Below the pieces are notes generated by a model. That model saw only the letters and a program-made list of their open reading frames with translations, was not told the DNA's origin and searched no databases. Positions 1,978 through 46,525 of a stretch of 59,973 bases of DNA are shown piece after piece. The stretch is taken from NCBI GenBank assembly GCA_902587095.1, contig CACIJY010000003.1:1-59973 (forward strand), read 5' to 3'. A program made the position numbers and the translations under genes. The DNA comes from an uncultured Pelagibacteraceae bacterium. GTDB taxonomy: Bacteria; Pseudomonadota; Alphaproteobacteria; Pelagibacterales; Pelagibacteraceae. The number at the start of each line of letters is the position of its first letter. Position 1 is the stretch's first letter.

Positions 1978-2005
1978 TTGTTTTTCCCAACAAAGACACT
2001 ATATA
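1978..2005 (+). promoter_or_regulatory. Putative promoter of hflK, leaderless spacing
   Basis: TTGTTT (1978-1983), a 16-base spacer, then TATATA (2000-2005), which ends 6 bases before the hflK ATG. TATAAA at 2002-2007 is an alternative. There is no Shine-Dalgarno sequence, so transcription would start at or next to the ATG. Confidence 0.45.
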
Positions 2006-2011
2006 AAGTGC

Positions 2012-3109
2012 ATGGTTGACGATTTTAGAAGTAGAGGTGGTAGCCCATGGGGATCTCCCCCAGGAGGCGGAGGCAATGGTTCAGGAAGAAGAGGCCCGAC
2101 ACCTCCAAACATCGATGAGATAATAAAAAATTTACAAGATAAGATTAATAAATTTTTACCAGGTGGCGCATCTAAAGGTGGAAAGCCATTAGTATTTGGA
2201 ATTTCAATTTTATTGATAATTTATGCTTTAAGCGGTTTATATCGTGTTTTACCAGATGAGCAGGGAGTTGTTTTAAGATTCGGAAAATTTGTTTCTACTA
2301 CTCAACCAGGTTTAAATTATCACATACCTTTCCCAATTGAAAGCGTACTTACTCCAAAGGTAACAAAGGTAAACAGAATCGATATTGGTTTTAGATCAGA
2401 AAGAGATTCAGGATTTAGCTCGGGTGTGGTGGCAGACGTCCCAGAGGAAAGCTTAATGTTAACCGGTGATGAGAATATTGTTAATATAGATTTTTCTGTC
2501 TTCTGGGTAATTAAAGATGCAGGTAAATTTTTATTTAAAATTCAAGATCCAGAAGGAACAGTAAAAGCTGCTGCAGAAACTGCTATGAGAGAAGTTATTG
2601 CTAAAAGTGATATTCAGCCGATTTTAACAGAAGGAAGATCAGTTATTGAGCAAGAAACAGAAACTATTATTCAACAAATTTTAGATGAGTATCAGAGTGG
2701 TATTCAAGTAACACAAGTTCAAACGCAAAAAGCAGACCCACCGGATCAAGTAATTGATGCATTTAGAGATGTTCAAGCAGCAAGAGCAGATATGGAGAGA
2801 TCAAAAAATGAAGCCGAAGCTTACGCGAATGATGTAATACCAAGAGCAAGAGGTGAAGCAGCAAAGATATTACAAGCCGCAGAGGCATATCAAAAGGAAG
2901 TTGTTGCAAAAGCTGAAGGTGAAGCAAGCAGATTTTTATCTATATTTAACGAATATAGAAAAGCTAAAGAGGTAACACAGGAAAGAATGTATTTAGAAAC
3001 AATGGAAAAAGTTTTAGCTGATATTGATAAAGTTATAATAGATAAAGACTCAGGATCAGGAGTTGTTCCATATCTTCCGTTACCTGAACTTAAAAAGAAA
3101 ACTAATTAA
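2012..3109 (+). CDS. hflK: FtsH protease regulatory subunit HflK
   Basis: 365-residue SPFH/band-7 membrane protein that, with HflC, forms the large periplasm-facing complex around the FtsH protease and modulates its turnover of membrane proteins. It has the family's Gly/Pro-rich cytoplasmic N-terminus (residues 1-35), one membrane anchor at about 60-78, a band-7 domain beginning YRVLPDEQGVVLRFGKF, and a long Ala/Glu-rich coiled coil (about 250-320) with the repeated GEA segments of HflK. It heads the run hflK-hflC-DUF2065-htrA-miaA, and hflC starts 2 bases after its stop. No ribosome binding site is visible. The Gly-rich start resembles other HflK N-termini and supports the chosen ATG. Confidence 0.95.
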   Translation: MVDDFRSRGGSPWGSPPGGGGNGSGRRGPTPPNIDEIIKNLQDKINKFLPGGASKGGKPLVFGISILLIIYALSGLYRVLPDEQGVVLRFGKFVSTTQPGLNYHIPFPIESVLTPKVTKVNRIDIGFRSERDSGFSSGVVADVPEESLMLTGDENIVNIDFSVFWVIKDAGKFLFKIQDPEGTVKAAAETAMREVIAKSDIQPILTEGRSVIEQETETIIQQILDEYQSGIQVTQVQTQKADPPDQVIDAFRDVQAARADMERSKNEAEAYANDVIPRARGEAAKILQAAEAYQKEVVAKAEGEASRFLSIFNEYRKAKEVTQERMYLETMEKVLADIDKVIIDKDSGSGVVPYLPLPELKKKTN

Positions 3110-3110
3110 A

Positions 3111-3980
3111 ATGAAAAAATTTGCGTTACCAATAATTCTTGTTTTAGCTTTTACGGCTTTCTTTTCAATTTTTATTGTAAAAGAAGTTAATCAAGCTATC
3201 GTTTTACAGTTTGGTGATCCAAAAAAAATTATTTTAAAACCAGGAATAAATTTTAAATTACCTTTTATCCAAAATGTAGTTTATTTAGACAAAAGAATTT
3301 TAAATTTAGATACACCACCTGAAGAAGTAATTGCATCAGATCAAAAAAGATTAATAGTTGATGCTTTCGCAAGATTCCAGATTATTGATCCATTAAAATT
3401 CTATATATCGGTTGGAAATGAAAGAGTTGCTAGATCAAGATTATCTACAATTATAAATTCAAGAATCAGAAACGTTTTAGGTCAGCAAGAATTACAAACA
3501 CTACTATCACAAGATAGAACGAAACAAATGTCTTTGATACAAGAAGGTGTAAACAATGAAGCTGAAAACTTTGGTATAAAAATAGTTGATGTAAGAATAA
3601 AGAGAGCAGATCTTCCCCAAGCGAATAGTGATGCAATTTATAGAAGAATGCAAACTGAAAGGGAAAGAGAAGCAAAAGAATTCAGAGCCAAAGGAGCAGA
3701 AATGGCAGTTACAATTACGTCTACTGCAGATAAAGAAGTTACAGTAATACTCGCGGATGCAGAAAAAAAATCCCAAATTATGAAGGGTGAAGGAGATGGA
3801 AAAAGAAATAAAATTTTTGCGGATGCATTTGGACAAGACCCACAATTCTTTGCTTTTTATAGAGCAATGCAAGCTTATGAAAAAGCTTTAATAGGTGGTG
3901 AAACTTCTTTAATCCTTTCGCCAGATAGTGAATTTTTCAAATTCTTTGGGGATATAAAAGCTAAACAATTAAATCAGTAA
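3111..3980 (+). CDS. hflC: FtsH protease regulatory subunit HflC
   Basis: 289-residue partner of HflK. One N-terminal membrane anchor (about residues 3-20) is followed by a band-7 domain starting VKEVNQAIVLQFGDP, then a charged helical stretch with EREREAKEFRAKGAE and a C-terminal region with EGDGKRNKIFADAFG, all typical of HflC. A longer open frame runs back to 3063 inside hflK, but the ATG at 3111, directly after the hflK stop, gives the expected short cytoplasmic N-terminus before the anchor, so I place the start there. Translation is probably coupled to hflK, since no Shine-Dalgarno sequence is visible. Confidence 0.95.
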   Translation: MKKFALPIILVLAFTAFFSIFIVKEVNQAIVLQFGDPKKIILKPGINFKLPFIQNVVYLDKRILNLDTPPEEVIASDQKRLIVDAFARFQIIDPLKFYISVGNERVARSRLSTIINSRIRNVLGQQELQTLLSQDRTKQMSLIQEGVNNEAENFGIKIVDVRIKRADLPQANSDAIYRRMQTEREREAKEFRAKGAEMAVTITSTADKEVTVILADAEKKSQIMKGEGDGKRNKIFADAFGQDPQFFAFYRAMQAYEKALIGGETSLILSPDSEFFKFFGDIKAKQLNQ

Positions 3981-3983
3981 AAA

Positions 3984-4172
3984 ATGAGAGAAATAATAGT
4001 CGCTTTTGGACTATTCTTATTTATAGAAGGCGCTTTATATGCCTTATTTCCCTCAAAAATGAGAAATATGTTAGAAAAATTAAAACTGATGAAAGATACC
4101 CAGTTAAGGTTTGGAGGAATAATATTTGCGTTAGTTGGCTTTTTAATCATTTGGTATATGAAAGTTTTATGA
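3984..4172 (+). CDS. DUF2065 (YjeT-like) small inner-membrane protein
   Basis: 62-residue protein with two hydrophobic segments (about 3-21 and 43-59) joined by a short basic loop containing MRNMLEKLK and QLRFGG. Length, topology and position right behind hflC match DUF2065, whose E. coli member YjeT is encoded in the hflK-hflC neighbourhood. Its function is unknown; the conserved linkage suggests an accessory role with HflKC/FtsH. Its stop overlaps the htrA start (ATGA at 4169-4172), implying translational coupling. Confidence 0.85.
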   Translation: MREIIVAFGLFLFIEGALYALFPSKMRNMLEKLKLMKDTQLRFGGIIFALVGFLIIWYMKVL

Positions 4173-5575
4173 AAGTAATACTTAAAAAATATTTTACTTT
4201 GATCTTGTTGTTTTCAATAACAACTATTTTACCAACAAACTCGCAAGATAGACCAGCTTCTTTTGCTGATTTAGCAGAGGAATTAATGCCATCTGTAGTA
4301 AATATTTCAACAACAACTACTATCGTACAAAATACAAACCCTTTTCCGTTTGAATTTCCTCCAGGATCTCCTTTTGGAGATATGTTTAAAGAATTTGGTT
4401 CACCACAAAAAAGGAAAGCCAGCGCCTTAGGTTCAGGTTTTGTAATAGATAGCAATGGAACAGTTATAACAAATAACCATGTAATCAAAGGTGCCGAAGA
4501 TATAGTCGTTAGATTTAGCAATGATAAAGAATATAAAGCAGAAATAGTTGGTGCAGATCCATTGTCAGATGTTGCTGTATTAAAAATTAAATCTAATGAT
4601 AAGTTTCAGCCTGTAAAATTTGGAAATTCTGATAAGGCTAGAATTGGTGACTGGGTTATAGCAATTGGAAATCCATTTGGTTTAGGAGGCACAGTTACCT
4701 CAGGAATAATTTCAGCAAGAAATAGAAATATTGGATTATCAAGATATGAAGATTTCATTCAAACAGATGCATCTATTAATACAGGAAATTCTGGTGGACC
4801 TTTATTTAATATGAATGGAGATGTAATAGGAATAAATACAGCGATACTTGGTCAACAAGGGTCAATTGGAATTGGTTTTGCAATTCCATCTAATAGCGCA
4901 AAACAAGTAATAGATCAATTAATTGAGTTTGGTGAAACAAAAAGAGGTTGGTTAGGTGTCAGAATTCAAAATGTTTCAAAAGAAATAGCAGAAATTGAAA
5001 AATTAGATAAAGCTAGAGGTGCATTGGTTGCAAGTGTTGCGCCAGGAAGTCCTTCAGACAAAGGAGGAATTAAAGACGGGGATATCATATTAGAATTTGA
5101 TGGAAAAAAAATAAACGAAATGCAAGAGTTACCACTAATTGTTGCTCAAACAAAAGTTGGTAAGGTTGTTAAACTTAAAGTTTGGAGAAATAAAAAAGAA
5201 ATAACAAAAACCATTACTCTTGGCAGACTTGAAACCTCAGAAGATTTTAAAGCTGAAACTCCAAACATTCCAAAGATTGAAGTTATAAATGCTTTAAAAA
5301 TCGAAGTTAGACCAACAACAAAAGAAGATATAATTCAAAGACAACTACCACCAAATGTATCAGGTTTAATAATAACTAAAATAGAGCCAGATAGCCCTAT
5401 AAATTATTTAAAAGTAAATGACATAATTGTAGAGGCGGGTAAAAGAAGAATTAAGTCTGCTAATCAATTAAATAATTTAGTTAACACAGCATTAAAGTCA
5501 CAAAATAAAACTATACTAATTGCAATATTTAATAATCAAAATCAAAAAAGATATATTGGTGTAAAATTGGATTAG
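4169..5575 (+). CDS. htrA: Periplasmic serine protease, DegP/HtrA family (Do)
   Basis: 468-residue envelope quality-control protease. An N-terminal signal peptide (about 1-26) precedes a trypsin-like domain whose catalytic triad is visible as His104 (TNNHVIKG), Asp134 (DPLSDVAV) and Ser208 (NTGNSGGP). Two PDZ domains follow, the first around 245-340 (GWLGVRIQNVS, with GDIILEFDGK) and the second at the C-terminus (IEPDSPINYLKVNDIIVEAG). I chose the ATG at 4169, which overlaps the preceding stop as ATGA, over an in-frame TTG 18 bases upstream, because it starts directly at a basic signal-peptide N-region (MKVILKKYF). Its place behind hflKC groups two membrane and periplasm proteolysis functions in one unit. 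Confidence 0.95.
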   Translation: MKVILKKYFTLILLFSITTILPTNSQDRPASFADLAEELMPSVVNISTTTTIVQNTNPFPFEFPPGSPFGDMFKEFGSPQKRKASALGSGFVIDSNGTVITNNHVIKGAEDIVVRFSNDKEYKAEIVGADPLSDVAVLKIKSNDKFQPVKFGNSDKARIGDWVIAIGNPFGLGGTVTSGIISARNRNIGLSRYEDFIQTDASINTGNSGGPLFNMNGDVIGINTAILGQQGSIGIGFAIPSNSAKQVIDQLIEFGETKRGWLGVRIQNVSKEIAEIEKLDKARGALVASVAPGSPSDKGGIKDGDIILEFDGKKINEMQELPLIVAQTKVGKVVKLKVWRNKKEITKTITLGRLETSEDFKAETPNIPKIEVINALKIEVRPTTKEDIIQRQLPPNVSGLIITKIEPDSPINYLKVNDIIVEAGKRRIKSANQLNNLVNTALKSQNKTILIAIFNNQNQKRYIGVKLD

Positions 5576-5576
5576 T

Positions 5577-6488: not shown

Positions 6489-6490
6489 AC

Positions 6491-6520
6491 TTGACCAATT
6501 AGCACAACTTCAGCTAGATT
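6491..6520 (+). promoter_or_regulatory. Putative promoter of ilvB, leaderless spacing
   Basis: TTGACC (6491-6496), an 18-base spacer, then TAGATT (6515-6520), ending 6 bases before the ilvB ATG at 6527. No Shine-Dalgarno sequence is present in the 38-base gap after miaA. Confidence 0.5.
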
Positions 6521-6526
6521 GGCTAA

Positions 6527-8293
6527 ATGTCAAAATTATATACAGGTGCAGAAATAGTTTTTAAATGTATGGAGGATCAAAAAGTTGAATTCATTTTTGG
6601 TTATCCTGGTGGCGCCGTATTACCAATTTACGACGAATTAAAAAATCATGATAGCATTAAACATATACTTGCACGACACGAGCAAGGAGCAGGACATGCT
6701 GCTGAAGGTTATGCAAGATCATGTGGAAAACCTGGTGTAGTTTTAGTTACATCTGGTCCTGGTGCAACAAATGTTGTTACAGCTTTAACAGATGCATATA
6801 TGGATTCGATTCCATTAGTTTGTATTTCAGGACAAGTTCCAACACATTTAATAGGTACAGACGCTTTTCAGGAATGTGACACTACAGGAATAACAAGACC
6901 ATGCACTAAACATAATTGGTTAGTAAAAGATGTTAAGGATTTAGCAAAAACAATTCACAAAGCTTTTGAAGTTGCAACAACAGGAAGACCTGGTCCAGTT
7001 TTGGTTGATATACCAAAAGATATTCAATTTCAAAAAGCCAAATATACAAATTTTAAAAAACAAAAAAAACTTAATGGAAAATCAAATAATAGATTTTCGC
7101 AAAAAGATATCGACAAACTTATTGAAATGATGAGTAAAGCAAAACAACCAATATTTTATACAGGTGGTGGTGTGATTAATTCTGGTCCTACTGCGAGTGA
7201 GCAATTAAGAGATTTAGTTTCAATCACTGGTTTTCCAATAACATCAACCCTACAAGGTCTTGGTTCATTCCCAGGAGATGACAATCAGTTTTTAGGTATG
7301 CTCGGTATGCATGGTACATACGAAGCTAATAATGCTATGCACGATTGTGATCTTATGATTAACATTGGTGCAAGATTTGATGATAGGATTACTGGAAAAA
7401 TAGATGAATTCTCTCCTAAATCCAAAAAGGTTCACATAGATATAGATCCATCTTCAATAAATAAAAATGTTAAGGTAGATCTTCCAATTGTAGGCGATGT
7501 CTCAGAAGTAATTTCGTTACTAATAAAGACAATTAAAAAACATAAACCAAATTTTTTGAAGTCTAACAAAGAAAATATTTCAAAATGGTGGGAACAGATT
7601 GGAAAATGGAGATCTGTTAATTCCTTAAACTTTATAAATAGTGACAAAACGATAAAACCACAATTTGCAATTCAAAGACTTTATGAGTTAACCAAGAATA
7701 AAGATACATTTATCACAACTGAAGTTGGTCAGCATCAAATGTGGGCAGCTCAACATTATAAATTTGATAAACCTAATAGATGGATGACATCAGGTGGTCT
7801 TGGTACAATGGGTTATGGTTTACCAGCAGCGGTTGGTGTTCAAATAGCTCATCCTGATAAACTAGTAGTTGATATTGCAGGAGAGGCCTCAGTTCTTATG
7901 ACAATGCAGGAAATGTCCACAGCTGTTCAATATAATTTACCAATAAAGATATTTATTTTAAACAATGAATACATGGGAATGGTAAGACAATGGCAAGAAT
8001 TACTTCACGAAAAAAATTATTCTGAAAGTTATACAGCAGCTCTACCTGACTTTGTTAAACTAGCAGAGGCTTATGGATGTGTTGGAATAAGAGCGAAAAC
8101 TCCTAATGAATTAGATCAAAAAATCCAAGAAATGATTGATGTAAAAAAACCTGTAATATTTGATTGTTTAGTTGATAAAGAAGAAAATTGTTTCCCAATG
8201 ATTCCATCAGGAAAACCTCACAATCAAATGTTATTAGGCCCTAATGATCAAAAAGAAAATAAAATTACAGGAAAAGGAAAAACTTTAGTTTAA
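6527..8293 (+). CDS. ilvB: Acetolactate synthase, large (catalytic) subunit
   Basis: 588-residue ThDP enzyme that condenses pyruvate with pyruvate or 2-oxobutyrate, the first common step of valine, leucine and isoleucine synthesis. The N-terminal ThDP domain has the cofactor-activating Glu52 in ARHEQGAGHAAEGYAR; a central FAD-type domain and a C-terminal pyrophosphate domain follow. In the GDG-NN metal/diphosphate motif the usual Asp is Glu453 (DIAGEASVLM), while the closing Asn pair (479-480, ILNNEY) is intact. It is the first gene of ilvB-ilvH-ilvC, with a 1-base overlap to ilvH. All other signature regions look normal, so I expect an active enzyme. Confidence 0.95.
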   Translation: MSKLYTGAEIVFKCMEDQKVEFIFGYPGGAVLPIYDELKNHDSIKHILARHEQGAGHAAEGYARSCGKPGVVLVTSGPGATNVVTALTDAYMDSIPLVCISGQVPTHLIGTDAFQECDTTGITRPCTKHNWLVKDVKDLAKTIHKAFEVATTGRPGPVLVDIPKDIQFQKAKYTNFKKQKKLNGKSNNRFSQKDIDKLIEMMSKAKQPIFYTGGGVINSGPTASEQLRDLVSITGFPITSTLQGLGSFPGDDNQFLGMLGMHGTYEANNAMHDCDLMINIGARFDDRITGKIDEFSPKSKKVHIDIDPSSINKNVKVDLPIVGDVSEVISLLIKTIKKHKPNFLKSNKENISKWWEQIGKWRSVNSLNFINSDKTIKPQFAIQRLYELTKNKDTFITTEVGQHQMWAAQHYKFDKPNRWMTSGGLGTMGYGLPAAVGVQIAHPDKLVVDIAGEASVLMTMQEMSTAVQYNLPIKIFILNNEYMGMVRQWQELLHEKNYSESYTAALPDFVKLAEAYGCVGIRAKTPNELDQKIQEMIDVKKPVIFDCLVDKEENCFPMIPSGKPHNQMLLGPNDQKENKITGKGKTLV

Positions 8294-9965: not shown

Positions 9966-12576
<2,611 letters not shown>

Positions 12577-17075: not shown

Positions 17076-17081
17076 TAGATT
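17076..17081 (+). promoter_or_regulatory. -10-like hexamer of the DadA-like gene, leaderless spacing
   Basis: TAGATT ends 6 bases before the ATG at 17088, the same hexamer and spacing as at ilvB and speB. No convincing -35 element and no Shine-Dalgarno sequence are visible in the 43-base gap. Confidence 0.4.
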
Positions 17082-17087: not shown

Positions 17088-18332
17088 ATGTCAAAAAGTG
17101 AAGTAGCTATAATTGGTGCTGGTATTCAAGGCGTCTGCAATGCTTTATTTTTACAAAAAAAAGGAATTGATGTAACTTTATTTGATAAAGATGAACCGGG
17201 TTGCGCAGCTTCTTATGGAAATGCAGGTCATTTTTCACCATATGCCTCCTTACAGTTAAACAGATCAGATGTGCTATCAGATGTACCTGCTATGCTGTTA
17301 AGCAGTAGAGGACCGCTAGCTTTAAAATGGAATTACTTTGTTAAAATGCTTCCTTGGTTTTCAAAATATATTATGAGTTGCTCAGAAAAAAAAATGATGC
17401 ATACCGCAAAATATATGCATCAAATTTTGGATATTTCATTAGATGCATATGATGAACTGTTTGCAGATATTAATTTAGACGGTCTAGTCGAAAAAAAAGG
17501 AATTATGTATGTGTGGGAAAAAAAAGGAATTAAAAGTAGAAAGATAGAAATTGATATTCGAGACAAATTGGGCGTAAAACAAAAAATTTTAAACCCAAAA
17601 GAAGTTCATGATTTGGAACCAAATTTAAAACCATTTTATGACGGAGGTGTATTTTATGAATACGCCAGACATGCAAGAAATCCAAAAAAAATTATTGAAA
17701 AGCTATTTGCAGATTTTATTAAAAAAGGAGGGAAATTTAAAAAAACAAATATTAACAATATAAATTTTAAAGACCAGAAACCCATTTTAATAACAGAAAA
17801 TAACAAATTATTGTTTGATAAAGTTGTAATAGCTTGTGGTGCTTTTTCAAAAAAGCTGACTGACAAATTAGATGAAAAAATTCCACTAGACACTGAAAGA
17901 GGCTATCATATTCATTTTAAAAATTACTCAAATCTATTATCCAGACCAGTTGTTTGGGCTGATAGAGGTTTCGGTATAACGCCTATGGAACAGGGTCTTA
18001 GAGTTGTTGGAACAGTTGAATTTGGAGGTTTGGAAAACCCTCTATCTAAGTCGAGAATTAAAAATTTAATATTAAATGCAAAAGATATGTTAAATGGTTT
18101 GCCAGAAAATGAGGATCATGAAGATGAATGGCTAGGTTTTAGACCAACATTACCTGATTTTCTTCCAGTGATTGGTAAATCAAAGAATTATAATAATGTT
18201 TACTATTCTTTTGGCCATCATCATTTGGGATGGACATTAGGTGCAATTTCAGGGAAAATAGTATCTAAAATGATTATTGGTGAAAAAACTAATTTAGACT
18301 TAACTCCTTACAGTTCATCAAGATTTAATTAA
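17088..18332 (+). CDS. FAD-dependent amino-acid oxidoreductase, DadA-like (D-amino acid dehydrogenase)
   Basis: 414-residue DAO-superfamily flavoprotein. The FAD-binding motif IIGAGIQGVCNALFLQKKG sits at residues 9-27, followed by DKDEPGCAASYGNAGHFSP, the arrangement of DadA small subunits. C-terminal FRPTLPDFLPVIGKS and FGHHHLGWTLGAISGK complete the flavin site. DadA oxidatively deaminates D-amino acids and feeds electrons to quinone; the substrate here may be a D-amino acid or another secondary or N-methyl amine. It heads a tight run with a DMT exporter, an HDAC-fold amidohydrolase, msrB and a small membrane protein, which hints at amine or amino-acid handling. Confidence 0.75.
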   Translation: MSKSEVAIIGAGIQGVCNALFLQKKGIDVTLFDKDEPGCAASYGNAGHFSPYASLQLNRSDVLSDVPAMLLSSRGPLALKWNYFVKMLPWFSKYIMSCSEKKMMHTAKYMHQILDISLDAYDELFADINLDGLVEKKGIMYVWEKKGIKSRKIEIDIRDKLGVKQKILNPKEVHDLEPNLKPFYDGGVFYEYARHARNPKKIIEKLFADFIKKGGKFKKTNINNINFKDQKPILITENNKLLFDKVVIACGAFSKKLTDKLDEKIPLDTERGYHIHFKNYSNLLSRPVVWADRGFGITPMEQGLRVVGTVEFGGLENPLSKSRIKNLILNAKDMLNGLPENEDHEDEWLGFRPTLPDFLPVIGKSKNYNNVYYSFGHHHLGWTLGAISGKIVSKMIIGEKTNLDLTPYSSSRFN

Positions 18333-21082: not shown

Positions 21083-21376
21083 TTATATATAATCATTTTT
21101 TTTAATTTTTCTTCTTATTTCTTTTCTTGTTTCTTCAAATTTTTTTCTGTGTTTAATACTTTGACCTTTGGCCCTCTTTCTCCAAAGCCTAAATGAAGAA
21201 GGTTTAAGTGATCTTCTCATTATTTTTATAACATCACCTTCTGATAAACCTGTTTTTGACTTGATGTCTTCGAATGTTATTCGATCTGCCCAAGCAGCCC
21301 ATACCACCCAGCTCTGACTGCCCACTTTGGGTTCAGGATTTTTAACCTTTGTGACAGGTCTGCGACTTTTTTTCAT
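21083..21376 (-). CDS. DUF2805 / TIGR03643 family protein
   Basis: 97-residue basic protein. The central region WAAWADRITFEDIKSKTGLSE and VIKIMRRSLKPSSFRLWR is characteristic of the TIGR03643/DUF2805 family, which looks like a small helix-turn-helix fold with an Arg/Lys-rich C-terminal helix (KHRKKFEETRKEIRRKIKK). Function is unknown; nucleic-acid binding is a guess from charge. It probably forms one transcript with grxC. A TATTAA hexamer sits 6 bases before its ATG. Confidence 0.8.
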   Translation of the reverse strand: MKKSRRPVTKVKNPEPKVGSQSWVVWAAWADRITFEDIKSKTGLSEGDVIKIMRRSLKPSSFRLWRKRAKGQSIKHRKKFEETRKEIRRKIKKNDYI

Positions 21377-21382
21377 AAATTC

Positions 21383-21388
21383 TTAATA
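21383..21388 (-). promoter_or_regulatory. -10-like hexamer of the DUF2805-grxC unit, leaderless spacing
   Basis: Read on the minus strand, TATTAA is followed by 6 bases and the ATG. No Shine-Dalgarno sequence is present. The -35 region is unclear. Confidence 0.35.
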
Positions 21389-22108: not shown

Positions 22109-22120
22109 CATCTATATTAT
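22091..22120 (+). promoter_or_regulatory. Putative promoter of the ProC-like gene, leaderless spacing
   Basis: TTTACA (22091-22096), 18-base spacer, TATTAT (22115-22120), ending 6 bases before the ATG at 22127. The -35 element overlaps the 3' end of the LysE gene. Confidence 0.4.
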
Positions 22121-22126
22121 TTTATT

Positions 22127-22903
22127 ATGAAAATAGGTTTTATAGGAACGGGACAGATAACAAAAGCAGTTGTAACAGGTGTAATTAAATCAAAATTAAA
22201 AATTTCAAAAATATTTTTATCTGAAAGAAATAAAAAAATTTCAAGAATTTTAAAATTTAAAAGTAAAAAAATTACAATAATTAAGAAAAATCAAGACATC
22301 ATTAATAAATCTGACTGGGTATTTCTTGCAGTAACACCAACTGTAGGAAATAAAATTTTAAGCAACCTAAAATTTAATAAAAATAAGATGATTATTAGTT
22401 TCATTTCAACAATCAATTTAAATCAATTAAAAGAAATTACAGGATTAAAATCAAATATTATTAGAGCCATACCATTACCACCAATTGCCTTATGTAAAGG
22501 CCCTGTGCCAATTTATCCACCAAATATTAAGGTTAAAAGGTTTTTTGATAAATTAGGATCTACAGTTGAAATCAACAATGAGAAGTTATCATTAAATTTT
22601 TGGACAACTTCTGCCATGATGGCTCCTTTTTATGAAATCTTATACTCGCTATCAAATTGGTTAATTAAGAGAGGAATAAAAAAAGAAAATGCACAAAAAT
22701 ATATATCATCTCTTTTCCTTGCATTATCAGAAGACGCTTTTAATCATAACAAAAATCTAAAAAAACTTGTTAGAGATTCGCAAACACCCGGTGGCTTGAA
22801 TGAGCAAGCAGTTAAAGATTTGCGAAAAGCCGGTTTTTATAAATTACTTGAAAAAACATCTAATAGAATAATAAAAAGGTTAAAAAAGTCACAATCTAAT
22901 TAA
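22127..22903 (+). CDS. Pyrroline-5-carboxylate reductase-like protein (ProC family, divergent)
   Basis: 258-residue NAD(P)-dependent reductase of the ProC superfamily. It starts with the Rossmann motif IGFIGTGQITKAVVTG and has the C-terminal family segment SQTPGGLNEQAVKDLRKAG. The canonical MPN motif that follows the beta-sheet in ProC is replaced by IPLPPIA, and the SPGGTT motif reads TPGGLN. True ProC makes proline from pyrroline-5-carboxylate; the changes suggest either a divergent ProC or a reductase of another cyclic imine. Very Lys-rich. A single-gene unit by spacing. Confidence 0.7.
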   Translation: MKIGFIGTGQITKAVVTGVIKSKLKISKIFLSERNKKISRILKFKSKKITIIKKNQDIINKSDWVFLAVTPTVGNKILSNLKFNKNKMIISFISTINLNQLKEITGLKSNIIRAIPLPPIALCKGPVPIYPPNIKVKRFFDKLGSTVEINNEKLSLNFWTTSAMMAPFYEILYSLSNWLIKRGIKKENAQKYISSLFLALSEDAFNHNKNLKKLVRDSQTPGGLNEQAVKDLRKAGFYKLLEKTSNRIIKRLKKSQSN

Positions 22904-31514: not shown

Positions 31515-32747
31515 TTACCTAAGTTTTTTACTTTTTAATTTGCCTTTATTAAAATCCACCTCTACAAATGATCCAAGAGTATCACCAATTTTGTCAAATT
31601 CTACACCAGTGACTCCCTCGTAATTAATTGATTTTCCCTCGCCTAGAATATTAATAGCTTTTTTTAAATCCCCTGGAAAAATCTTAATTCCTGGCTTATT
31701 CGCTATAGAATAAATGTTTTTATTAATAGAGTCTTCTTTTGAATAAAATTTTGCAAAATTTGATAGTATAATTAGAGCCGCAGCATCATATGACTCACCG
31801 GTATAAGGACTGGAAGGGTCAATACCTGATTTTTGTGCTAAGTTTATAAATTTTTCTGAACCCAAATTTGAAAGACCCTGAACATAACCAAATGATTGTC
31901 TCAAATCTTTGTCTTTAAATTTATTAATTATTTTTGGATCTATCATATTATCTGGCAGGATAAATGATTTAAACATACCTGCGTCTAACATTGAGCTTAT
32001 AATTTGATCACCTCCTAAATCAATATCACTTATGATTGCTAAAGCATCTCCTCCTGCAGCTGTTAACGCTGATATATGTTTTGAATAATCATTAATATTT
32101 TTGTTGTGGGATATCATGATTGTAGTTTTTACTTTATTTTTATTTAGTGCATCACTGTAAGTTTTTGCAAATTTTTCATAGTCTTTATTATCACTGTAAG
32201 AAATTGCTACTTTTTTTATCCCTCTATCTGAGGTTATATCTGCCAAAATTTGGCTACCTCTTATTTTTGGAGGTGTTGTTCTGAATACATAGCCATTATC
32301 CTTTAATTTAATTAATTCATTGGAGGTATCCGCCGGTGAAATCGTTAATATTTTTTTAGGTATCAGAACTTTTTTTGCAATTTCTATTGTTAGATCTGGA
32401 CAAGCTGCTCCTATGATTGCTGTAATACCATCTTCAATTAATTGGGTTGCAGAGTCTCTTGCTAAATTTTTATTGCTACAACTTGTATCTGCTCTTTGGA
32501 TTTTAAATTTAATTTTATTTGAAAGATCTACGTCATTTGATATCTCATTAAATGCTAACTCAGCAGAGTCTGCCATAGATGGTGTCAAACTTTCTACTAC
32601 ACCGGAAAATCCAAGTAAAATACCTACTTTGACCTCATTGTGATTTTCAGCATGAGATTTTGATATGAACACACAAATATATATTAATGTAAATAATAAT
32701 ATTTTTAAACAAGCTTTGATTTTTTTGTGATAATAAGCACTAAACAT
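31515..32747 (-). CDS. Branched-chain amino-acid-type ABC substrate-binding protein (LivJ-like), orphan
   Basis: 410-residue type I periplasmic binding protein. A signal peptide ends near SKSHAEN; then EVKVGILLGFSGVVESLTPSMADSAELAFNE matches the first strand-helix of LivJ/Leu-binding proteins, and GAACPDLTIEIAKKVL is the ligand-loop region. No ABC permease or ATPase of the Liv type lies nearby, so it must feed a transporter elsewhere or act as a sensor. TATAAA 6 bases before the ATG supports the chosen start. Ligand unknown; amino acids, amides or ureas are possible. Confidence 0.85.
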   Translation of the reverse strand: MFSAYYHKKIKACLKILLFTLIYICVFISKSHAENHNEVKVGILLGFSGVVESLTPSMADSAELAFNEISNDVDLSNKIKFKIQRADTSCSNKNLARDSATQLIEDGITAIIGAACPDLTIEIAKKVLIPKKILTISPADTSNELIKLKDNGYVFRTTPPKIRGSQILADITSDRGIKKVAISYSDNKDYEKFAKTYSDALNKNKVKTTIMISHNKNINDYSKHISALTAAGGDALAIISDIDLGGDQIISSMLDAGMFKSFILPDNMIDPKIINKFKDKDLRQSFGYVQGLSNLGSEKFINLAQKSGIDPSSPYTGESYDAAALIILSNFAKFYSKEDSINKNIYSIANKPGIKIFPGDLKKAINILGEGKSINYEGVTGVEFDKIGDTLGSFVEVDFNKGKLKSKKLR

Positions 32748-32753
32748 GGTATC

Positions 32754-32759
32754 TTTATA
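32754..32759 (-). promoter_or_regulatory. -10-like hexamer of the orphan binding-protein gene, leaderless spacing
   Basis: On the minus strand TATAAA precedes the ATG at 32747 by exactly 6 bases. The 33-base divergent space also holds TATAAC (32767-32772), 8 bases before the plus-strand ATG at 32781, so both promoters are packed back to back. Confidence 0.4.
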
Positions 32760-32780: not shown

Positions 32781-33521
32781 ATGGAATCCAAAAAAATTAA
32801 ACCCCATTTTAAAAAAAAAACAAACCCCAGAGTAGGACTAATTGTTTTAGCAACCGATGTGATGATTGAAAAAGATTTTCTAAAAGTTTTTAGTAGAATC
32901 TCTGCTGATCTTTATGTTAATAGAATAGCTAATTATAATCCTGTTACAGCTAACAACTTAAAAAAAATGACAAATAAAATTACATCTGTAACAGAAAATA
33001 TTCTCCCAGGAGAAAAAGTAGATTGTATAGTTTATGGTTGTACCTCAGGAACAATTGTTTCAGGTTACGATAATATTAAAAAGAAAATTAATATTGCAAA
33101 ACCAGATGCTTTAGTAACAGCCCCAAGCACAGCAGCCCTAAACGCATTAAAAAAAAAAAGTATTAATAAGATTTCAATAGTAACCCCCTATATTAAAAGC
33201 GTAAATGACGATGTAGTTAACTTTTTTAAAAAAAATAATTTTGAAGTTACCTCAAACACCTATTTTGATATTCAGTCTGATGTCGATATTGGGAGAGTAG
33301 ATCAAGATCAATTGTTTAAAATTTTGTCTAACATCAATCACAAAAACGCTGAAGCTCTGTTTGTATCCTGCACATCATTACCAGTTTTAAATATAATCGA
33401 AAAGTTAGAAAAAAAATTAAACATGACTGTCTTGTCAAGTAATCAAGCTTTAATTTGGGAAACTTTAGAAAATATAAATAGAAATAACTCTATAAAAGGT
33501 TATGGAAGTTTATTTTCTTAA
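32781..33521 (+). CDS. EutA-like maleate isomerase / Asp-Glu racemase superfamily protein
   Basis: 246-residue cytosolic protein of the arylmalonate decarboxylase/maleate isomerase branch of the Asp/Glu racemase superfamily. The two catalytic cysteines are present: Cys87 in VYGCTSGT and Cys197 in VSCTSLP; NQALIWETL at the C-terminus is typical of maleate isomerase and EutA. EutA is encoded in many ectoine-degradation clusters; the DoeA/EutD-like gene 8 bases downstream supports that branch. Exact reaction unproven; isomerisation or racemisation of a dicarboxylate or amino acid intermediate is likely. Confidence 0.75.
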   Translation: MESKKIKPHFKKKTNPRVGLIVLATDVMIEKDFLKVFSRISADLYVNRIANYNPVTANNLKKMTNKITSVTENILPGEKVDCIVYGCTSGTIVSGYDNIKKKINIAKPDALVTAPSTAALNALKKKSINKISIVTPYIKSVNDDVVNFFKKNNFEVTSNTYFDIQSDVDIGRVDQDQLFKILSNINHKNAEALFVSCTSLPVLNIIEKLEKKLNMTVLSSNQALIWETLENINRNNSIKGYGSLFS

Positions 33522-41475: not shown

Positions 41476-42121
41476 TATCAGAAAACATTTTTAAAGAATT
41501 AATAAAATCTGGTCTCAAAACATATTCAGATTGATCATTAAATTTAATTTTTTCTAAAGCAGAAATTCCATTAACAACCCTCCCTAAAGGAGTGTATTCA
41601 CCCTCAAACAAAAAAGCGTCAGCCAGAAGAATTAAAAATTCACTATCCTCTGCATCTCCATTTTTACTTTTTGCAAAAGCTACTGTGCCTCTTTTGAATT
41701 CAAATGGTTTATCAGTTTCTGGTTTGATTAAAGCGTATTTCGATCTTCCACTACCTATATAAGTATAATTTAAATTTTCTTTCCTTCCAAATTCTAAATC
41801 TCCTGCTTGTACTAAAAAATTTTCAACAACTCTATGAAATGCAACATTGTCATATTCTCTATTTTTAACTAGCTTTTTAAATCTTTCGACTGAATTTGGT
41901 GAAATACTTGGATAAAGTTCGATTACAACATTACCACAGGGAACATTTAAGATGACGATATTTTCAGGTTTATTAAATTTTAATTTTGTAAGATTTACTT
42001 TTTCAACAAACAAACATTTATTTTTAATTAATGTAAAAGAAATTAAAGAAAAAATTGCAAGTAAAATTAAAAAAATTAGTAATAATTTTTCAGATTTCGT
42101 TTGTTTGATCTTTTTTAACAT
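41468..42121 (-). CDS. Membrane-anchored peptidyl-prolyl isomerase, cyclophilin type
   Basis: 217 residues with an N-terminal anchor or uncleaved signal (about 13-30) and a short bacterial cyclophilin domain: GNVVIELYPSISPNSVERFKKL, NVAFHRVVENFLVQAGD (FHRV with active-site Arg), and RGTVAFAKSKNGDAEDSEFLILL replacing the usual GTVSMARTxxPxSATSQFFI. It probably folds exported proteins at the periplasmic face. It lies 2 bases downstream of the HExxH gene in one unit. Confidence 0.85.
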   Translation of the reverse strand: MLKKIKQTKSEKLLLIFLILLAIFSLISFTLIKNKCLFVEKVNLTKLKFNKPENIVILNVPCGNVVIELYPSISPNSVERFKKLVKNREYDNVAFHRVVENFLVQAGDLEFGRKENLNYTYIGSGRSKYALIKPETDKPFEFKRGTVAFAKSKNGDAEDSEFLILLADAFLFEGEYTPLGRVVNGISALEKIKFNDQSEYVLRPDFINSLKMFSDIN

Positions 42122-42123
42122 TT

Positions 42124-42861
42124 TTAAAATTGATGTTTAGCATCTAATTTATTAATTAAATTTTCAATTAATTTTACTTTTTTATTCAGTATCTCATCTT
42201 TACTAATCATATCTAAAATCAAATAATTATCTGACATCATAAAAGAAAAAGTTTCAGCCATATCTTCAGATATTGTTGATTTTGCATATTCAGAAACAAA
42301 TCCTTTACTATTGTAAATTTTTTCTAAGCTATAGTTGTTAGAACATGTCGAACATGCTGAATACTTAAATTCTTTTGAGTTTAAATCACTCCAAGAAATA
42401 TTTAAAAAATATTTATTAAAGTTGTTCTCAATTATATGAAACACCTCATGATGTAATACTCTTTCAAAATTTGAATTGTTGGTATTTATATTAAGAATAA
42501 GTGTTTTCATTTCAGGGTTAGCAAATCCAAGTGCGGGTATCCCTGCTATTTCTAATTCACTACATAGAAGAATATATTTTAATTTAATTTTTCTAAAAAA
42601 ATCTTCGTTATATTTATTGAAACCTTTTTGAGCCTCTAAATACTTTTCATTAAAATTTTGAGGTTGATTTTTTTTACAACTAACATTCTCAGAACTTGAA
42701 CCAACAAAAAAATCTTTTGTAGGCTTTAAGAATGCTAATGAGTTTTTATTTTCCAATTTATGTAAAGTTAAATTAGGTATCTTTATTAGTTCCAGCATTT
42801 GGTCAGCTTTAACTACAAATGATAATAATAATAGCAAAATTATGTAAAAGTTTAACTTCAT
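42124..42861 (-). CDS. Secreted putative zinc metallopeptidase (HExxH), unknown family
   Basis: 245 residues. A signal peptide (about 1-19, ending VVKAD) is followed by a domain with His138-Glu139-Val-Phe-His142 (LHHEVFHIIENNF) and, downstream, SEDMAETFSFMM with Glu203 as a likely third zinc ligand. This is the layout of gluzincin-like peptidases related to anthrax lethal-factor-type or putative zinc-binding lipoprotein families. The pair CSTC near residue 170 could bind metal or form a disulfide. I cannot assign a substrate. CATAAT 6 bases before the ATG supports this start. Confidence 0.65.
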   Translation of the reverse strand: MKLNFYIILLLLLSFVVKADQMLELIKIPNLTLHKLENKNSLAFLKPTKDFFVGSSSENVSCKKNQPQNFNEKYLEAQKGFNKYNEDFFRKIKLKYILLCSELEIAGIPALGFANPEMKTLILNINTNNSNFERVLHHEVFHIIENNFNKYFLNISWSDLNSKEFKYSACSTCSNNYSLEKIYNSKGFVSEYAKSTISEDMAETFSFMMSDNYLILDMISKDEILNKKVKLIENLINKLDAKHQF

Positions 42862-42867
42862 TGGAAA

Positions 42868-42873
42868 ATTATG
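42868..42873 (-). promoter_or_regulatory. -10-like hexamer of the HExxH-cyclophilin unit, leaderless spacing
   Basis: CATAAT on the minus strand ends 6 bases before the ATG at 42861. The divergent speB -10 (42901-42906) lies only 27 bases away. Confidence 0.35.
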
Positions 42874-42900
42874 ATTATACTTTAATCAAATATTATATGT

Positions 42901-42906
42901 TAGATT
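42901..42906 (+). promoter_or_regulatory. -10-like hexamer of speB, leaderless spacing
   Basis: TAGATT followed by 6 bases (AAATAA) and the ATG at 42913. It is the third TAGATT-N6-ATG in the window. No Shine-Dalgarno sequence. Confidence 0.4.
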
Positions 42907-42912
42907 AAATAA

Positions 42913-43875
42913 ATGAAGAAAAAAAATAAAGATACAATTCAACCAGTTAGCGGAACAATTGTACCAAGATTTGCAGGACCAAGTACATTTGCAAGATTGC
43001 CAGAACTAAGAGATGTAGAAAGTTGTGATGTAGCAATTGTAGGAATTCCTTTTGATGCAGGAACAAGTTATAGACCTGGTGCAAGATTTGGACCACAAAG
43101 TATTAGACAAGCATCTAGACATTTAAGAACAAATTACCATCCAGATTATGATGTTGAACCATTTAAAGTTCAACAAGTTGCAGACGCAGGAGATATAACT
43201 TGTAATCCATTCAATATAAAAGAGGCTATACATCAAATAGAAAATGGAGCTATCGATCTTTTAAATCAAACAGGTGGTATAATTAGTATGGGAGGCGATC
43301 ATACAATTGCATTTCCACTTCTTAGAGCAGTAAACAAAATTAATGAGGGGCCTGTAGCTTTAGTACATTTTGACGCTCACCTTGATACTTGGGACACTTA
43401 TATGGGTGCACCATTTACGCATGGTACTCCTTTTAGAAGAGCTAGAGAAGAAGGTTTATTTCTTGATGACGCGTCAATGCATGTTGGAATTAGAGGTCCA
43501 TTATATAGCAGAGATGATTTAAAAAACGACGAAAGTTTTGGTTTTAAAATAATTCATTGTGATGAGTTTCAAACAGAAGGAATTGATAAGATAGTAAGCA
43601 GAATAAGAAAAAGAGTAGGCAACAACCCATTGTATCTCTCAATTGATATAGATGTATTAGATCCAGCTTTTGCTCCAGGCACAGGGACACCTGAAATAGC
43701 TGGGATGTCCACAAGAGAAATGGTGAATGTTATTAGAGGATTATCAGGCTTGAAATTAATATCAGCAGATGTTGTTGAAGTTTCACCAGCATATGATCAT
43801 GCAGAAGTTACATCTTTAGCTGCAGCAACAATAATTTATGAGCTGACTAATTTATTTGCAAAAGTTAAAGGATAA
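42913..43875 (+). CDS. speB: Agmatinase-family ureohydrolase
   Basis: 320-residue binuclear-manganese hydrolase. The three metal motifs are SMGGDHTIAFPLL, VHFDAHLDTWD and LSIDIDVLDPAFAPGTGTPE. The substrate region THGTPFRRAREEGL is of the agmatinase/guanidinobutyrase type. Reaction: removal of urea from agmatine (to putrescine), 4-guanidinobutyrate, or a related guanidino compound. The aldehyde dehydrogenase 14 bases downstream would fit a route from a guanidino acid or amine to a carboxylic acid. The symbol is by family; the substrate is not fixed by the sequence. Confidence 0.85.
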   Translation: MKKKNKDTIQPVSGTIVPRFAGPSTFARLPELRDVESCDVAIVGIPFDAGTSYRPGARFGPQSIRQASRHLRTNYHPDYDVEPFKVQQVADAGDITCNPFNIKEAIHQIENGAIDLLNQTGGIISMGGDHTIAFPLLRAVNKINEGPVALVHFDAHLDTWDTYMGAPFTHGTPFRRAREEGLFLDDASMHVGIRGPLYSRDDLKNDESFGFKIIHCDEFQTEGIDKIVSRIRKRVGNNPLYLSIDIDVLDPAFAPGTGTPEIAGMSTREMVNVIRGLSGLKLISADVVEVSPAYDHAEVTSLAAATIIYELTNLFAKVKG

Positions 43876-43889
43876 GTTAATTTCTTTTC

Positions 43890-45323
43890 ATGTTAGATAA
43901 AAAAAAATTCTATATCAATGGAGAGTGGGTTGATCCTAAAAGCAACCAAACAATAGATATAATAAATCCTGCAACAGAGGATGTTTGTGCAGAGATATCT
44001 TTAGGAAATAAAGACGATGTTAATGAAGCAGTTCAATCTGCTAAAACAGCTTTTAAGACTTGGGCATTCTCAACAAAAGAGGAAAGACTAGCTCCATTAG
44101 AGAAATTATATGAACTTTATAAAAAAAGATGGGCAGATATTGCAGAGGCGATTACTTTGGAAATGGGAGCACCAAAAGATTTTGCAACTAAACTTCAAGC
44201 TGGCACAGGAGCAGCGCATATAAAAACCTTTATTAGATATTTAAAAGAATTTAACTTTGAAAAACCTTTAGGTGAACATGCAAAAAATCAAAGAATAATT
44301 TACGAACCTAAAGGAGTATGTGCTTTGATTACTCCTTGGAACTGGCCTATGAATCAAACTTGCTTAAAAGTTATGCCAGCGATAGCATCTGGCTGCACAA
44401 TGGTTCTTAAACCATCAGAGGTGGCACCCTTGTCAGCAATGATACTCGCAGAATTAATCCATGAAGCTAAATTTCCAAAAGGAGTATTTAATTTAGTTAA
44501 TGGAGATGGAGCAAACACAGGTGATGCGCTCACAAGTCATCCAGATATAAACATGATTTCTTTTACTGGATCAACCCGTGCTGGTGCTTTGATTTCACAA
44601 AATGCTGCAAAAGATTTTAAAAGAGTTAGTCTCGAACTAGGTGGTAAAGGCGCTAATATTATATTTAAAGATGCAGACCCAAAGGCAATTGAAAGAGGAG
44701 CTCTTAGATGTTTTAGAAATTCCGGTCAATCGTGTAATGCACCAACAAGAATGTTAGTTGAAAAAAGTATGTATACCCAAGCAGTTGAGAGAGTAAAACA
44801 ATTTGCTAATGAAATGAAAGTTGGCGATCCTAATAAAGAAGGAGAGCACATTGGCCCAGTTGTTTCTGAAGTTCAATATAAAAAAATCCAATCTTTAATT
44901 CAAAAAGGAATTGATGAGGGCGCTACGCTTGTAGCTGGCGGAACTGGAAAACCAGATGGTATTGAAAAAGGGTATTTTGTAAAACCCACTGCATTTGCTG
45001 ATGTCAATAATAATATGGAAATTGCTAGAACAGAAATTTTTGGACCTGTTTTATCAATTATACCTTTCGAAAATGAGGAGGAAGCTATCGAAATAGCAAA
45101 TGATACTGACTATGGATTAACAAATTATATTCAAACTCAAGATAAAGAAAAAGCAAATCGTGTTGCAAGAAAATTAAGATCTGGAATGGTTGATGTTAAT
45201 GGCGCTGGTATAGCAGTAGATGCTCCTTTTGGTGGATTTAAACACTCAGGAATTGGGAGAGAGGCAGGTAAAGAAGGTTTATTGGAATTTTTAGAAGTCA
45301 AATCTGTTGGTGGCTGGAATTAA
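43890..45323 (+). CDS. NAD(P)-dependent aldehyde dehydrogenase
   Basis: 477-residue enzyme of the ALDH superfamily. Landmarks are TPWNWPMNQTCLKVMPAIASG (catalytic Asn), SFTGSTRAG (cofactor), LELGGKGANI (general base Glu) and FRNSGQSCNAPTR (nucleophile Cys). It ends FGGFKHSGIGREAGKEGL. Substrate candidates from context are aminobutyraldehyde or succinic semialdehyde in polyamine breakdown, or aspartate semialdehyde in ectoine breakdown (as DoeC). Its stop overlaps the convergent argE-like gene stop by four bases (TTAA). Confidence 0.9.
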   Translation: MLDKKKFYINGEWVDPKSNQTIDIINPATEDVCAEISLGNKDDVNEAVQSAKTAFKTWAFSTKEERLAPLEKLYELYKKRWADIAEAITLEMGAPKDFATKLQAGTGAAHIKTFIRYLKEFNFEKPLGEHAKNQRIIYEPKGVCALITPWNWPMNQTCLKVMPAIASGCTMVLKPSEVAPLSAMILAELIHEAKFPKGVFNLVNGDGANTGDALTSHPDINMISFTGSTRAGALISQNAAKDFKRVSLELGGKGANIIFKDADPKAIERGALRCFRNSGQSCNAPTRMLVEKSMYTQAVERVKQFANEMKVGDPNKEGEHIGPVVSEVQYKKIQSLIQKGIDEGATLVAGGTGKPDGIEKGYFVKPTAFADVNNNMEIARTEIFGPVLSIIPFENEEEAIEIANDTDYGLTNYIQTQDKEKANRVARKLRSGMVDVNGAGIAVDAPFGGFKHSGIGREAGKEGLLEFLEVKSVGGWN

Positions 45324-46504
45324 TTCGCTTTAGATTTAATACCTTCTAAAAATTTTAAACATTTTTTTAATTCATTTAATTCAATAAATTCATCAACCTT
45401 ATGTGCTTGCTCTATTGATCCTGGACCACACACCACAGTACTAATTCCTATTTCTTGAAACAATCCCGCTTCAGTCCCAAAAGATACCACGTTTCTTGAG
45501 TTATCGCCTGTAATGCTAGAAACAAGTTCACATGCATCAGATTTTTCCTCTCGATCAAAACCAACTATTTCTCCGATAATTTCTTTTTCAATTTTGGAAC
45601 CTTTATAAGTTTTTTTCATTTCAGGTAACAATTTCTCATTAATAAATTTATCAATTTCACTATTTACAAATATACCATCTTTTTTTACAACAGGTCTTAG
45701 TTCCCAATCAACTTTACATTTATCTGCAATCACATTCCTTGCTATACCTCCTGATATGCCACCAATTTGAAGAGTTGTATGAGGCGGATCAAAGATAGAT
45801 TTTTTTGGTGGGCTATTTTTTAAATGTTCTCTAATCTCTAAAAGTTTTTGTATAAACTTAGAAGCATACTCAACAGCATTCACCCCTTTATCAGGTTGTG
45901 AACCATGTCCTGCTAATCCATAAAAATGAGTTGTGTATTCGTAACAGCCTTTGTGAGCATCTATAATTTTCATATTTGTAGGTTCGCCAACTACACAAAT
46001 TGCATCTTTAATATTTCTTTTTTTTAATTCTTTAATTAATAACGGCGCACCTTGACAAGCTGTCTCCTCATCAAATGTAAATGAAAAATGAAGATCTCTA
46101 TCCATATTTGAATTTGAGAAAATTGGAGCGTAGGCAAGTAAGCAAGCAAGAAATCCCTTCATGTCACATGAACCTCTTCCATATAATTTTTCATTTTTTA
46201 TAGTAGCTATGAAAGGATCTGACGACCAACCTTTTGAGACAGGGACGACATCCGTATGTCCAGATAAAATTATAGGCTTTTTAGCATTTTTATTTTTTGA
46301 TTTAAGAGTAGCAAAAAGATTTACCCTTTTTTTATCAGAGTCGTAAATTTTAAATGACTCCGCTCCTAAGTTATTAAAAATTTTTTCACAATAATTTATT
46401 ATAGAATTATTATCCTCCCCAGAAATTGATTTAAAAGCTATTAAGTCAGAGAGTATTTTTACTGAACTATTGAATGTTTTATTTAAATTATTTTCTGTAC
46501 TCAT
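45320..46504 (-). CDS. ArgE/DapE-like M20 deacetylase (acetylornithine deacetylase family)
   Basis: 394-residue zinc amidohydrolase. Landmarks: ILSGHTDVVPVSKGWSSDPF (metal-binding His-Thr-Asp), YGRGSCDMKGFLA (bridging Asp), DEETACQGAP (catalytic Glu-Glu) and a dimerisation domain near HKGCYEYTTHFYGLAGHGSQP, with the last ligand in GPGSIEQAHKVDEFIEL. The best match is acetylornithine deacetylase (ArgE), but alphaproteobacteria often make ornithine by ArgJ, so a catabolic N-acyl amino acid, for example N-acetyl-diaminobutyrate from ectoine, is a fair alternative. Divergent from csaA with 27 bases between the starts. Confidence 0.85.
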   Translation of the reverse strand: MSTENNLNKTFNSSVKILSDLIAFKSISGEDNNSIINYCEKIFNNLGAESFKIYDSDKKRVNLFATLKSKNKNAKKPIILSGHTDVVPVSKGWSSDPFIATIKNEKLYGRGSCDMKGFLACLLAYAPIFSNSNMDRDLHFSFTFDEETACQGAPLLIKELKKRNIKDAICVVGEPTNMKIIDAHKGCYEYTTHFYGLAGHGSQPDKGVNAVEYASKFIQKLLEIREHLKNSPPKKSIFDPPHTTLQIGGISGGIARNVIADKCKVDWELRPVVKKDGIFVNSEIDKFINEKLLPEMKKTYKGSKIEKEIIGEIVGFDREEKSDACELVSSITGDNSRNVVSFGTEAGLFQEIGISTVVCGPGSIEQAHKVDEFIELNELKKCLKFLEGIKSKAN

Positions 46505-46519
46505 ATAAAAAATTAATTA

Positions 46520-46525
46520 TATATT
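46520..46525 (+). promoter_or_regulatory. -10-like hexamer of csaA, leaderless spacing
   Basis: TATATT followed by 6 bases (AAATTC) and the ATG at 46532. On the opposite strand TATAAT (46516-46521) could serve the argE-like gene. No Shine-Dalgarno sequence. Confidence 0.35.

Follow-up and report, generated by a model that had tools for sequence, protein, structure and literature searches.

Predicted leaderless transcripts in SAR11: a -10 element ending 6 bases before the ATG at a subset of operon heads

Does a -10-like hexamer that ends exactly 6 bases before an ATG, met repeatedly within one stretch of DNA, mark genes whose transcripts begin on the start codon, or is it what AT-rich sequence offers to a selective reader? 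The stretch, called the window below, comprises 59,973 nucleotides (positions 1 to 59,973 of contig CACIJY010000003.1, assembly GCA_902587095.1) from an uncultured Pelagibacteraceae bacterium of the SAR11 group, which is among the most abundant bacterial groups of the ocean. An earlier note on this DNA had listed nine genes with such a hexamer and without a Shine-Dalgarno sequence and had proposed that they are leaderless. All nine hexamers were located at the positions given, each ending exactly 6 bases before an ATG with which the gene starts, and no AGGA, GGAG, or GAGG was seen by eye in the 20 bases 5' of any of the nine ATGs, an absence that is partly trivial since a -10 element at -12 to -7 fills the Shine-Dalgarno position. 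Pfam matches are consistent with the gene names (Band_7/HflK_N for hflK, TPP enzyme for ilvB, DAO for the DadA-like gene, P5CR_dimer for the ProC-like gene, arginase for speB, and tRNA_bind, CsaA-like, for csaA); those of the remaining genes are DUF2805, Peripla_BP_6, and Peptidase_Mx1. We conclude that the promoter rule is real as a class and holds for a subset of genes. The pattern noted in the first reading is true, and the mechanism it named is the most likely one; its list of examples, however, was too long, and about half of the nine fail individually.

The genome from which the window comes is an 871-kb assembly that is 69% complete, with a G+C content of 30.8%; the nearest record to its IlvB protein is AG-426-E17 (97% identity, Pelagibacteraceae) among genome contig records from which its own genome was possibly excluded. 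We sampled the window and 20-kb stretches, 400 to 460 kb per genome, from five genomes of the same genus and one of the sister family (G019). Genes were called by a uniform rule (the longest open reading frames of at least 80 amino acids, with the first ATG taken as the start), and a gene was treated as an operon head if it was at least 15 bases from a divergent neighbor or was separated from a same-strand neighbor by a gap of more than 10 bases. Excluded from the counts were genes of fewer than 80 amino acids, open reading frames cut at the end of a stretch, starts with at most 80 bases of the stretch upstream of them, genes lacking an upstream neighbor in the stretch, non-ATG starts, and divergent pairs less than 15 bases apart; an Escherichia coli stretch lay outside every count. 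Only ATG-started genes were counted, so the class result covers AUG starts. The five same-genus genomes gave 948 heads, or 688 with one representative per ortholog cluster. We write Nx for the number of bases between the end of the -10 hexamer and the ATG, define a full promoter as TTG[ACT]-N16..18-TANNNT, and use TANA[AT]T or TATTAT as the strict hexamer set. Cluster representatives were drawn randomly and the strict regular expression was used in two ways, which shifts counts slightly (strict hexamers at N6, 42 or 40; TAGATT, 6 or 4).

In the window itself, TANNNT stands at N6 before 8 of 34 operon-head starts, compared with a mean of 1.88 per other offset. Five of these had been listed previously (ilvB, the DadA-like gene, the ProC-like gene, speB, and csaA), and the other three are at 32781, 43890, and 59173. 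The start at 43890 was rejected as a further N6 gene; its hexamer lies directly 3' of the AAAGGATAA that ends the upstream gene and is probably there by chance. Across the 948 heads, TANNNT peaks at N6 (101 heads, against 59 at N5, 47 at N7, and a shuffle mean of 49.4), and the strict set is found there at 53 heads against 18.9. With deduplicated heads, the N6 counts are 73 of 688 against a mean of 35.7 for TANNNT and 42 against 12.5 for the strict set. The genome-scale enrichment over shuffled sequences and other offsets for which the earlier note had proposed a test is therefore present as a single-base peak, and no such bare-hexamer peak is seen at non-start ATGs (5802 intergenic and 57568 intragenic). 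TAGATT, whose recurrence was also remarked upon there, has the largest N6 excess of any hexamer (10 of 948 heads against 0.8); four of the ten are copies of ilvB. TANNNT rises at N0 (79 of 948 heads) and N11 (74) as well, over a mean of 49.9; the N0 rise consists partly of in-frame stops.

Choosing the first ATG after a stop codon as the start creates an artifact that accounts for part of the bare TANNNT signal. At N6, TA[AG]NNT reads as an in-frame stop, and its excess extends to internal genes (41 of 853 against 15.8). TATNNT does not encode a stop, and its excess is confined to heads (37 of 948 against 17.7; internal genes, 4 of 853 against 8.9). Because bare TANNNT is inflated by in-frame stops, we required a -35 box, which removes the artifact, and counted full promoters. 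In one draw, these occur at N6 in 21 of the 688 representative heads, with 5 at N5, 3 at N7, and 8 at the next highest offset. Over ten random draws the N6 count is 16 to 21, compared with a mean of 2.5 at other offsets, and in each of the five genomes taken alone N6 has the highest full-promoter count among N0 to N20 (5, 4, 7, 6, and 5). Restricting the -10 element to TATNNT, which is free of the stop artifact, gives 6 to 9 full promoters at N6 against 1.2 (p = 3e-5). The sister-family genome G019 has 5 in 197 heads against 0.87.

The fixed spacing depends on a correctly placed -35 element. Wrong spacers abolish the N6 spike, leaving 1 match with spacers of 10 to 12 and 4 with spacers of 22 to 24 (means, 2.15 and 2.23), and a TTG is present at spacers of 16 to 18 in 20 of 90 N6 representatives, where 6.9 (TTG) or 5.7 (TTG[ACT]) would be expected. 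When spacers of 15 to 19 are allowed, 21 of 90 TANNNT N6 genes have a TTG -35 element, compared with 81 of 569 (p = 0.04). An extended -10 element (TGN) shows no excess in N6 genes (4 of 90 versus 19 of 629). Internal genes have a full promoter at N6 in 1 of 583 representatives (mean, 0.67), and 5712 intergenic non-start ATGs have 13 (mean, 8.7, with 12 each at N0 and N5), which is no comparable spike. Relative to the background at N60 to N99, 17.1 of the 72.3 excess promoter matches within 60 bases sit at N6, or about a quarter. When the promoter pattern was sought at any ATG in 61 genomes, regardless of gene calls, the hand-summed matches numbered 182 at N6, 109 at N9, and 119 at N4; inspection by eye assigns at least 38 of those at N6 to ilvB, which leaves at most a modest excess.

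Conservation was assessed in ortholog upstreams of the nine genes, from which we dropped best hits with less than 40% identity, with less than half of the protein covered, or beginning after residue 12, as well as duplicate upstreams and hits for which no ATG lay within 6 codons. The clearest cases are ilvB and csaA. In ilvB (6491 to 6529, plus strand), the -35 element TTGACC at 6491 to 6496, a spacer of 18, and the -10 element TAGATT at 6515 to 6520 lead at N6 to the ATG at 6527 to 6529, the predicted start of both transcription and translation. The -35 element, which had been called plausible from the window alone, is conserved among orthologs: TTGAC[CG]-TAGATT-ATG is kept in 44 of 48 distinct upstreams (spacer 18 with N6 in 31, spacer 18 with N5 in 7, and spacer 16 with N6 in 6). 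Of the four upstreams that depart from it, one (L046) carries a leader with GGGAGAAA, and the others are L048, L050, and L233, the last being from G019. The pattern CTTGACN{17,19}TAGATTN{5,6}ATG is found in 146 of 201 genomes of the genus (own genome included) and in 26 of the 29 most complete, while a backward control of the pattern matches in one genome. The spacer (6497 to 6514) is conserved as well, as CAACTTCAGC in most listed species and as a ATAAAGTC-type sequence in others; this exceeds what a spacer needs, and a regulator site is possible.

At csaA (46520 to 46534, plus strand), TATATT at 46520 to 46525 stands at N6 before the ATG at 46532. Of 28 upstreams, counting that of the window, 23 have TATA[TC]T at N6 and 2 have it at N5; it was not found in the other 3. 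Among the 25 in which it was found, the -10 element is 13, 14, 15, or 17 bases from the ATG of the divergent gene. As the variation in length lies beyond the -10 element, toward the divergent gene, indels are tolerated there and hardly at all between the -10 element and the ATG.

Transcription from sigma70 promoters starts about seven bases after the -10 element, and N6 would therefore put the start on the A of the ATG. A pyrimidine is favored at -1 before start sites, and it is commoner at this position in N6 genes (59 of 90 versus 323 of 629; p = 0.013). From these sequences we infer the start nucleotide and the mode of translation: a subset of SAR11 operon heads would be read from sigma70 promoters whose -10 element ends 6 bases 5' of the ATG, RNA polymerase would begin on the A and make an mRNA without a leader, and the ribosome would recognize the 5'-terminal AUG by the 70S or leaderless initiation known in other bacteria. 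The 16S rRNA ends in GGATTACCTCCTTT, with the anti-Shine-Dalgarno sequence intact, in the five same-genus genomes, and the sixth, G019, has no match to the probe. (Another probe, GGNTGGATCACCTCC, was discarded after giving 0 matches in the 6 genomes, the SAR11 sequence being GGATTACC.) Shine-Dalgarno-like tetramers are present in the genome of the window at 31 of 195 heads and 36 of 192 internal genes. With the anti-Shine-Dalgarno sequence intact and such tetramers present, Shine-Dalgarno initiation is therefore also available, and leaderless initiation would coexist with it. We consider it likely that sigma70 promoters starting on the A of the ATG give leaderless mRNA in SAR11 beside Shine-Dalgarno initiation. 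More tentatively, leaderless initiation may be a major mode for SAR11 operon heads, with about a quarter of recognizable sigma70 promoters locked on the start codon through genome streamlining and that of ilvB kept throughout the genus.

Several results weigh against leaderless transcription from these promoters. In the strict hexamer set taken alone, neither the TTG -35 element at spacers of 15 to 19 (9 of 48 versus 33 of 208; p = 0.67) nor the pyrimidine at -1 (31 of 48; p = 0.10) is significant. csaA has no recognizable TTG -35 element, and 0 full promoters were found at N4 to N10 in 27 of its ortholog upstreams. Conserved N6 spacing is absent from five of the nine listed genes, and TANNNT is at N6 in at least 2 genomes in only 8 clusters, the same number as for N0. 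Bare hexamers at N6 are not clearly raised in G019 (12 of 197 against 9.3). Finally, in a single-genome expectation-maximization (EM) motif search seeded with TATAAT, TAGATT, and AGGAGG, no N6 -10 class stood out, and a Shine-Dalgarno-like motif scored highest in all three SAR11-type genomes searched (own, G003, and G019).

If the hexamers were meaningless, chance in AT-rich DNA combined with selective reading would have to produce them. AT-richness does raise the chance rate, as the earlier note had cautioned (TANNNT is found at about 5% of heads per offset), five genes lack N6 conservation, and four of the nine listed hexamers belong to types that are scarcely or not at all enriched at N6: TANNNA, the type of hflK, the binding protein, and DUF2805 (48 of 688 against 36.6; p = 0.04), and CANNNT, the type of the HExxH gene (9 of 688 against 10.8). 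However, chance does not yield a single-base spike relative to shuffles, other offsets, internal genes, and non-start ATGs, nor the conservation at ilvB and csaA. It is refuted for the class and is improbable as a general account, although it best explains the hexamers of DUF2805, the binding protein, and the HExxH gene and probably also that of the ProC-like gene. Leaders of 1 to 5 nucleotides, from promoters near the ATG that start slightly upstream or downstream of the A, would fit the spacing at hflK, which is mostly 7 to 10, and the 7 of 48 ilvB upstreams with N5; full promoters are also raised over N5 to N14 generally (36 and 20 in two five-base bins against 7.3 per bin in shuffles). Such tolerance should yield a broad hump rather than a single spike, yet N5 and N7 are near background beside N6, which makes this explanation unlikely for the class.

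Two further explanations place the signal outside transcription. An AT-rich ribosome-recognition signal of the non-Shine-Dalgarno, Bacteroidetes type could mimic a -10 element, and the motif is indeed AT-rich and locked to the ATG. The spike nonetheless requires a TTG -35 element at 16 to 18 and is lost with wrong spacers, and internal genes, which would also need a ribosome signal, have no N6 spike in either full promoters or TATNNT; a signal of this kind is very unlikely. The other is the stop artifact described above, by which start calls placed at the first ATG downstream of a stop favor in-frame TAA or TAG a few codons upstream. The excess of TA[AG]NNT at internal genes bears it out, and it explains part of the bare hexamer excess. 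It does not explain the promoter spike: TATNNT is raised at heads only, the frame-matched offsets N0, N3, N9, N12, and N15 give 3, 1, 4, 8, and 2 full promoters (one draw) against 16 to 21 at N6, and the peak persists among genes with an ortholog-matched start (24 of 177 against 9.4). As the source of the whole pattern, it is highly improbable.

Among alphaproteobacteria, Sinorhizobium meliloti has a large genome of high G+C content. Kasugamycin is one of the antibiotics that inhibit initiation on leadered but not on leaderless mRNA. Excerpts of published work allow leaderless transcription from N6 promoters in SAR11 to be set beside systems already described. In S. meliloti, 171 mapped start sites coincide with the first base of a start codon, which is AUG in every case (PMC3616915); this is an alphaproteobacterium, as SAR11 is, but its cases are measured and those of SAR11 are predicted. 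In Actinobacteria and Deinococcus-Thermus, a TA-like signal lies about 10 bp upstream of leaderless genes (Zheng 2011, PMC3160421). The SAR11 class resembles these in its TANNNT core, fixed distance to the ATG, and lack of a Shine-Dalgarno sequence, and it differs in extent, with about 5% of heads by the bare hexamer excess (73 less 35.7 of 688), compared with around 20% and 40% of genes in those two groups. The same source lists 2 of 117 alphaproteobacterial genomes as having such genes. The leaderless transcriptome of Mycobacterium tuberculosis has a TANNNT -10 motif 7 to 12 bp 5' of the start site and, according to the excerpted text, no conserved -35 motif (PMC3898074), unlike the SAR11 N6 promoters with their TTG excess at spacers of 16 to 18. 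Leaderless transcription has been predicted for 21.6% of bacterial species (quoted in the excerpt of PMC9581028), and the same paper mentions antibiotics that stop leadered initiation while sparing leaderless initiation. In our own comparison set of 28 loci, mostly from other alphaproteobacteria, TANNNT is at N6 in 5 of 331 heads against 1.6 in shuffles (N19 also has 5), and full promoters at N6 number 0. The literature searched, which left most subscription papers outside it, held no report of leaderless transcripts in SAR11 and no SAR11 transcription-start map; in the excerpt of PMC2704228, which mentions Pelagibacter, "leaderless" appears nowhere outside the reference list. The system is thus of a known kind, in a group for which no report was found. 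If the leaderless class is true, it would change the annotation of SAR11 gene starts, and a share of SAR11 translation would depend on a 5'-terminal AUG; for ilvB and csaA, the reading predicts the transcription start to the single base.

Gene by gene, the N6 rule is well supported by conservation at ilvB and csaA and fairly at the DadA-like gene, while at hflK the spacing is 6 to 10 or 19, and at speB, the ProC-like gene, DUF2805, the binding protein, and the HExxH gene N6 is unconserved beyond the closest relatives. The DadA-like FAD oxidoreductase gene (PF01266; 17076 to 17090, plus strand) has TAGATT at 17076 to 17081, N6, and its ATG at 17088. All 16 ortholog upstreams have a TATAWT-like hexamer at N5 to N7, under a hexamer definition that was relaxed once the sequences had been seen. 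About 24 bases 5' of this -10 element is a block, AATTTGTCGC, that is kept in several relatives; it is too far away for a -35 element and looks like an operator.

At hflK (2000 to 2014, plus strand), the -10-like TATATA at 2000 to 2005 stands at N6 before the ATG at 2012, and the promoter is conserved with variable spacing. In 18 ortholog upstreams, TATATA is at N7 in 8, N9 in 3, N19 in 3 (L048, L050, and L233), N8 in 2, N10 in 1, and N6 in 1, and CTTGTTTTT was seen by eye about 16 bases 5' of it in 13 of 17. Because the spacing is mostly 7 to 10, with N6 in 1 of 18, a leader of a few bases seems more likely for hflK than a leaderless transcript. The -10 element lies within a near-palindrome, CACTATATAAAGTG in the window (1995 to 2011) and GACACTATATAGAGTGTC in L006 and L043, whose right arm is missing in some relatives and which is possibly a repressor site.

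The case of speB (arginase family; 42901 to 42915, plus strand) is weak: TAGATT at 42901 to 42906 is at N6 before the ATG at 42913, and N6 holds TAGATT in the closest relative, L108, TAGGTT in L110, and TANNNT in 4 of 17 orthologs. In the divergent HExxH gene (PF15890; 42859 to 42873, minus strand), CATAAT at 42868 to 42873 is at N6 before the ATG at 42861, and a perfect TATAAT at N12 is a better -10 element; L108 and L110, which are the closest relatives, also have CATAAT, and TANNNT is at N6 in 3 of 14 orthologs. In the gap between the two genes (42862 to 42912 in the window), several relatives (e.g., L117, L126, and L132) share ATTCCAATTT...AAAGAATGTG, a block that was not seen in the gap of the window. 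The ProC-like gene (22115 to 22129, plus strand) has TATTAT at 22115 to 22120, N6, and its ATG at 22127, with an overlapping TATATT at N8; the N6 hexamer is unconserved, TANNNT being at N6 in 2 of 26 ortholog upstreams. Two genes on the minus strand are unsupported: DUF2805 (21374 to 21388; TATTAA at 21383 to 21388, N6, ATG at 21376), with TANNNT at N6 in 0 of its few (3) ortholog upstreams, and the orphan periplasmic binding protein (32745 to 32759; TATAAA at 32754 to 32759, N6, ATG at 32747), with 0 of 2, its ATG not being kept in the two relatives examined.

Upstream of the gene at 9966, a TTGCAATCT...GATTGTATTAT promoter is conserved, and the leader predicted from it measures very roughly 15 to 20 bases. 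A Shine-Dalgarno sequence is missing in many relatives, and L048, L050, and L051 carry GAGGATGAGAG instead.

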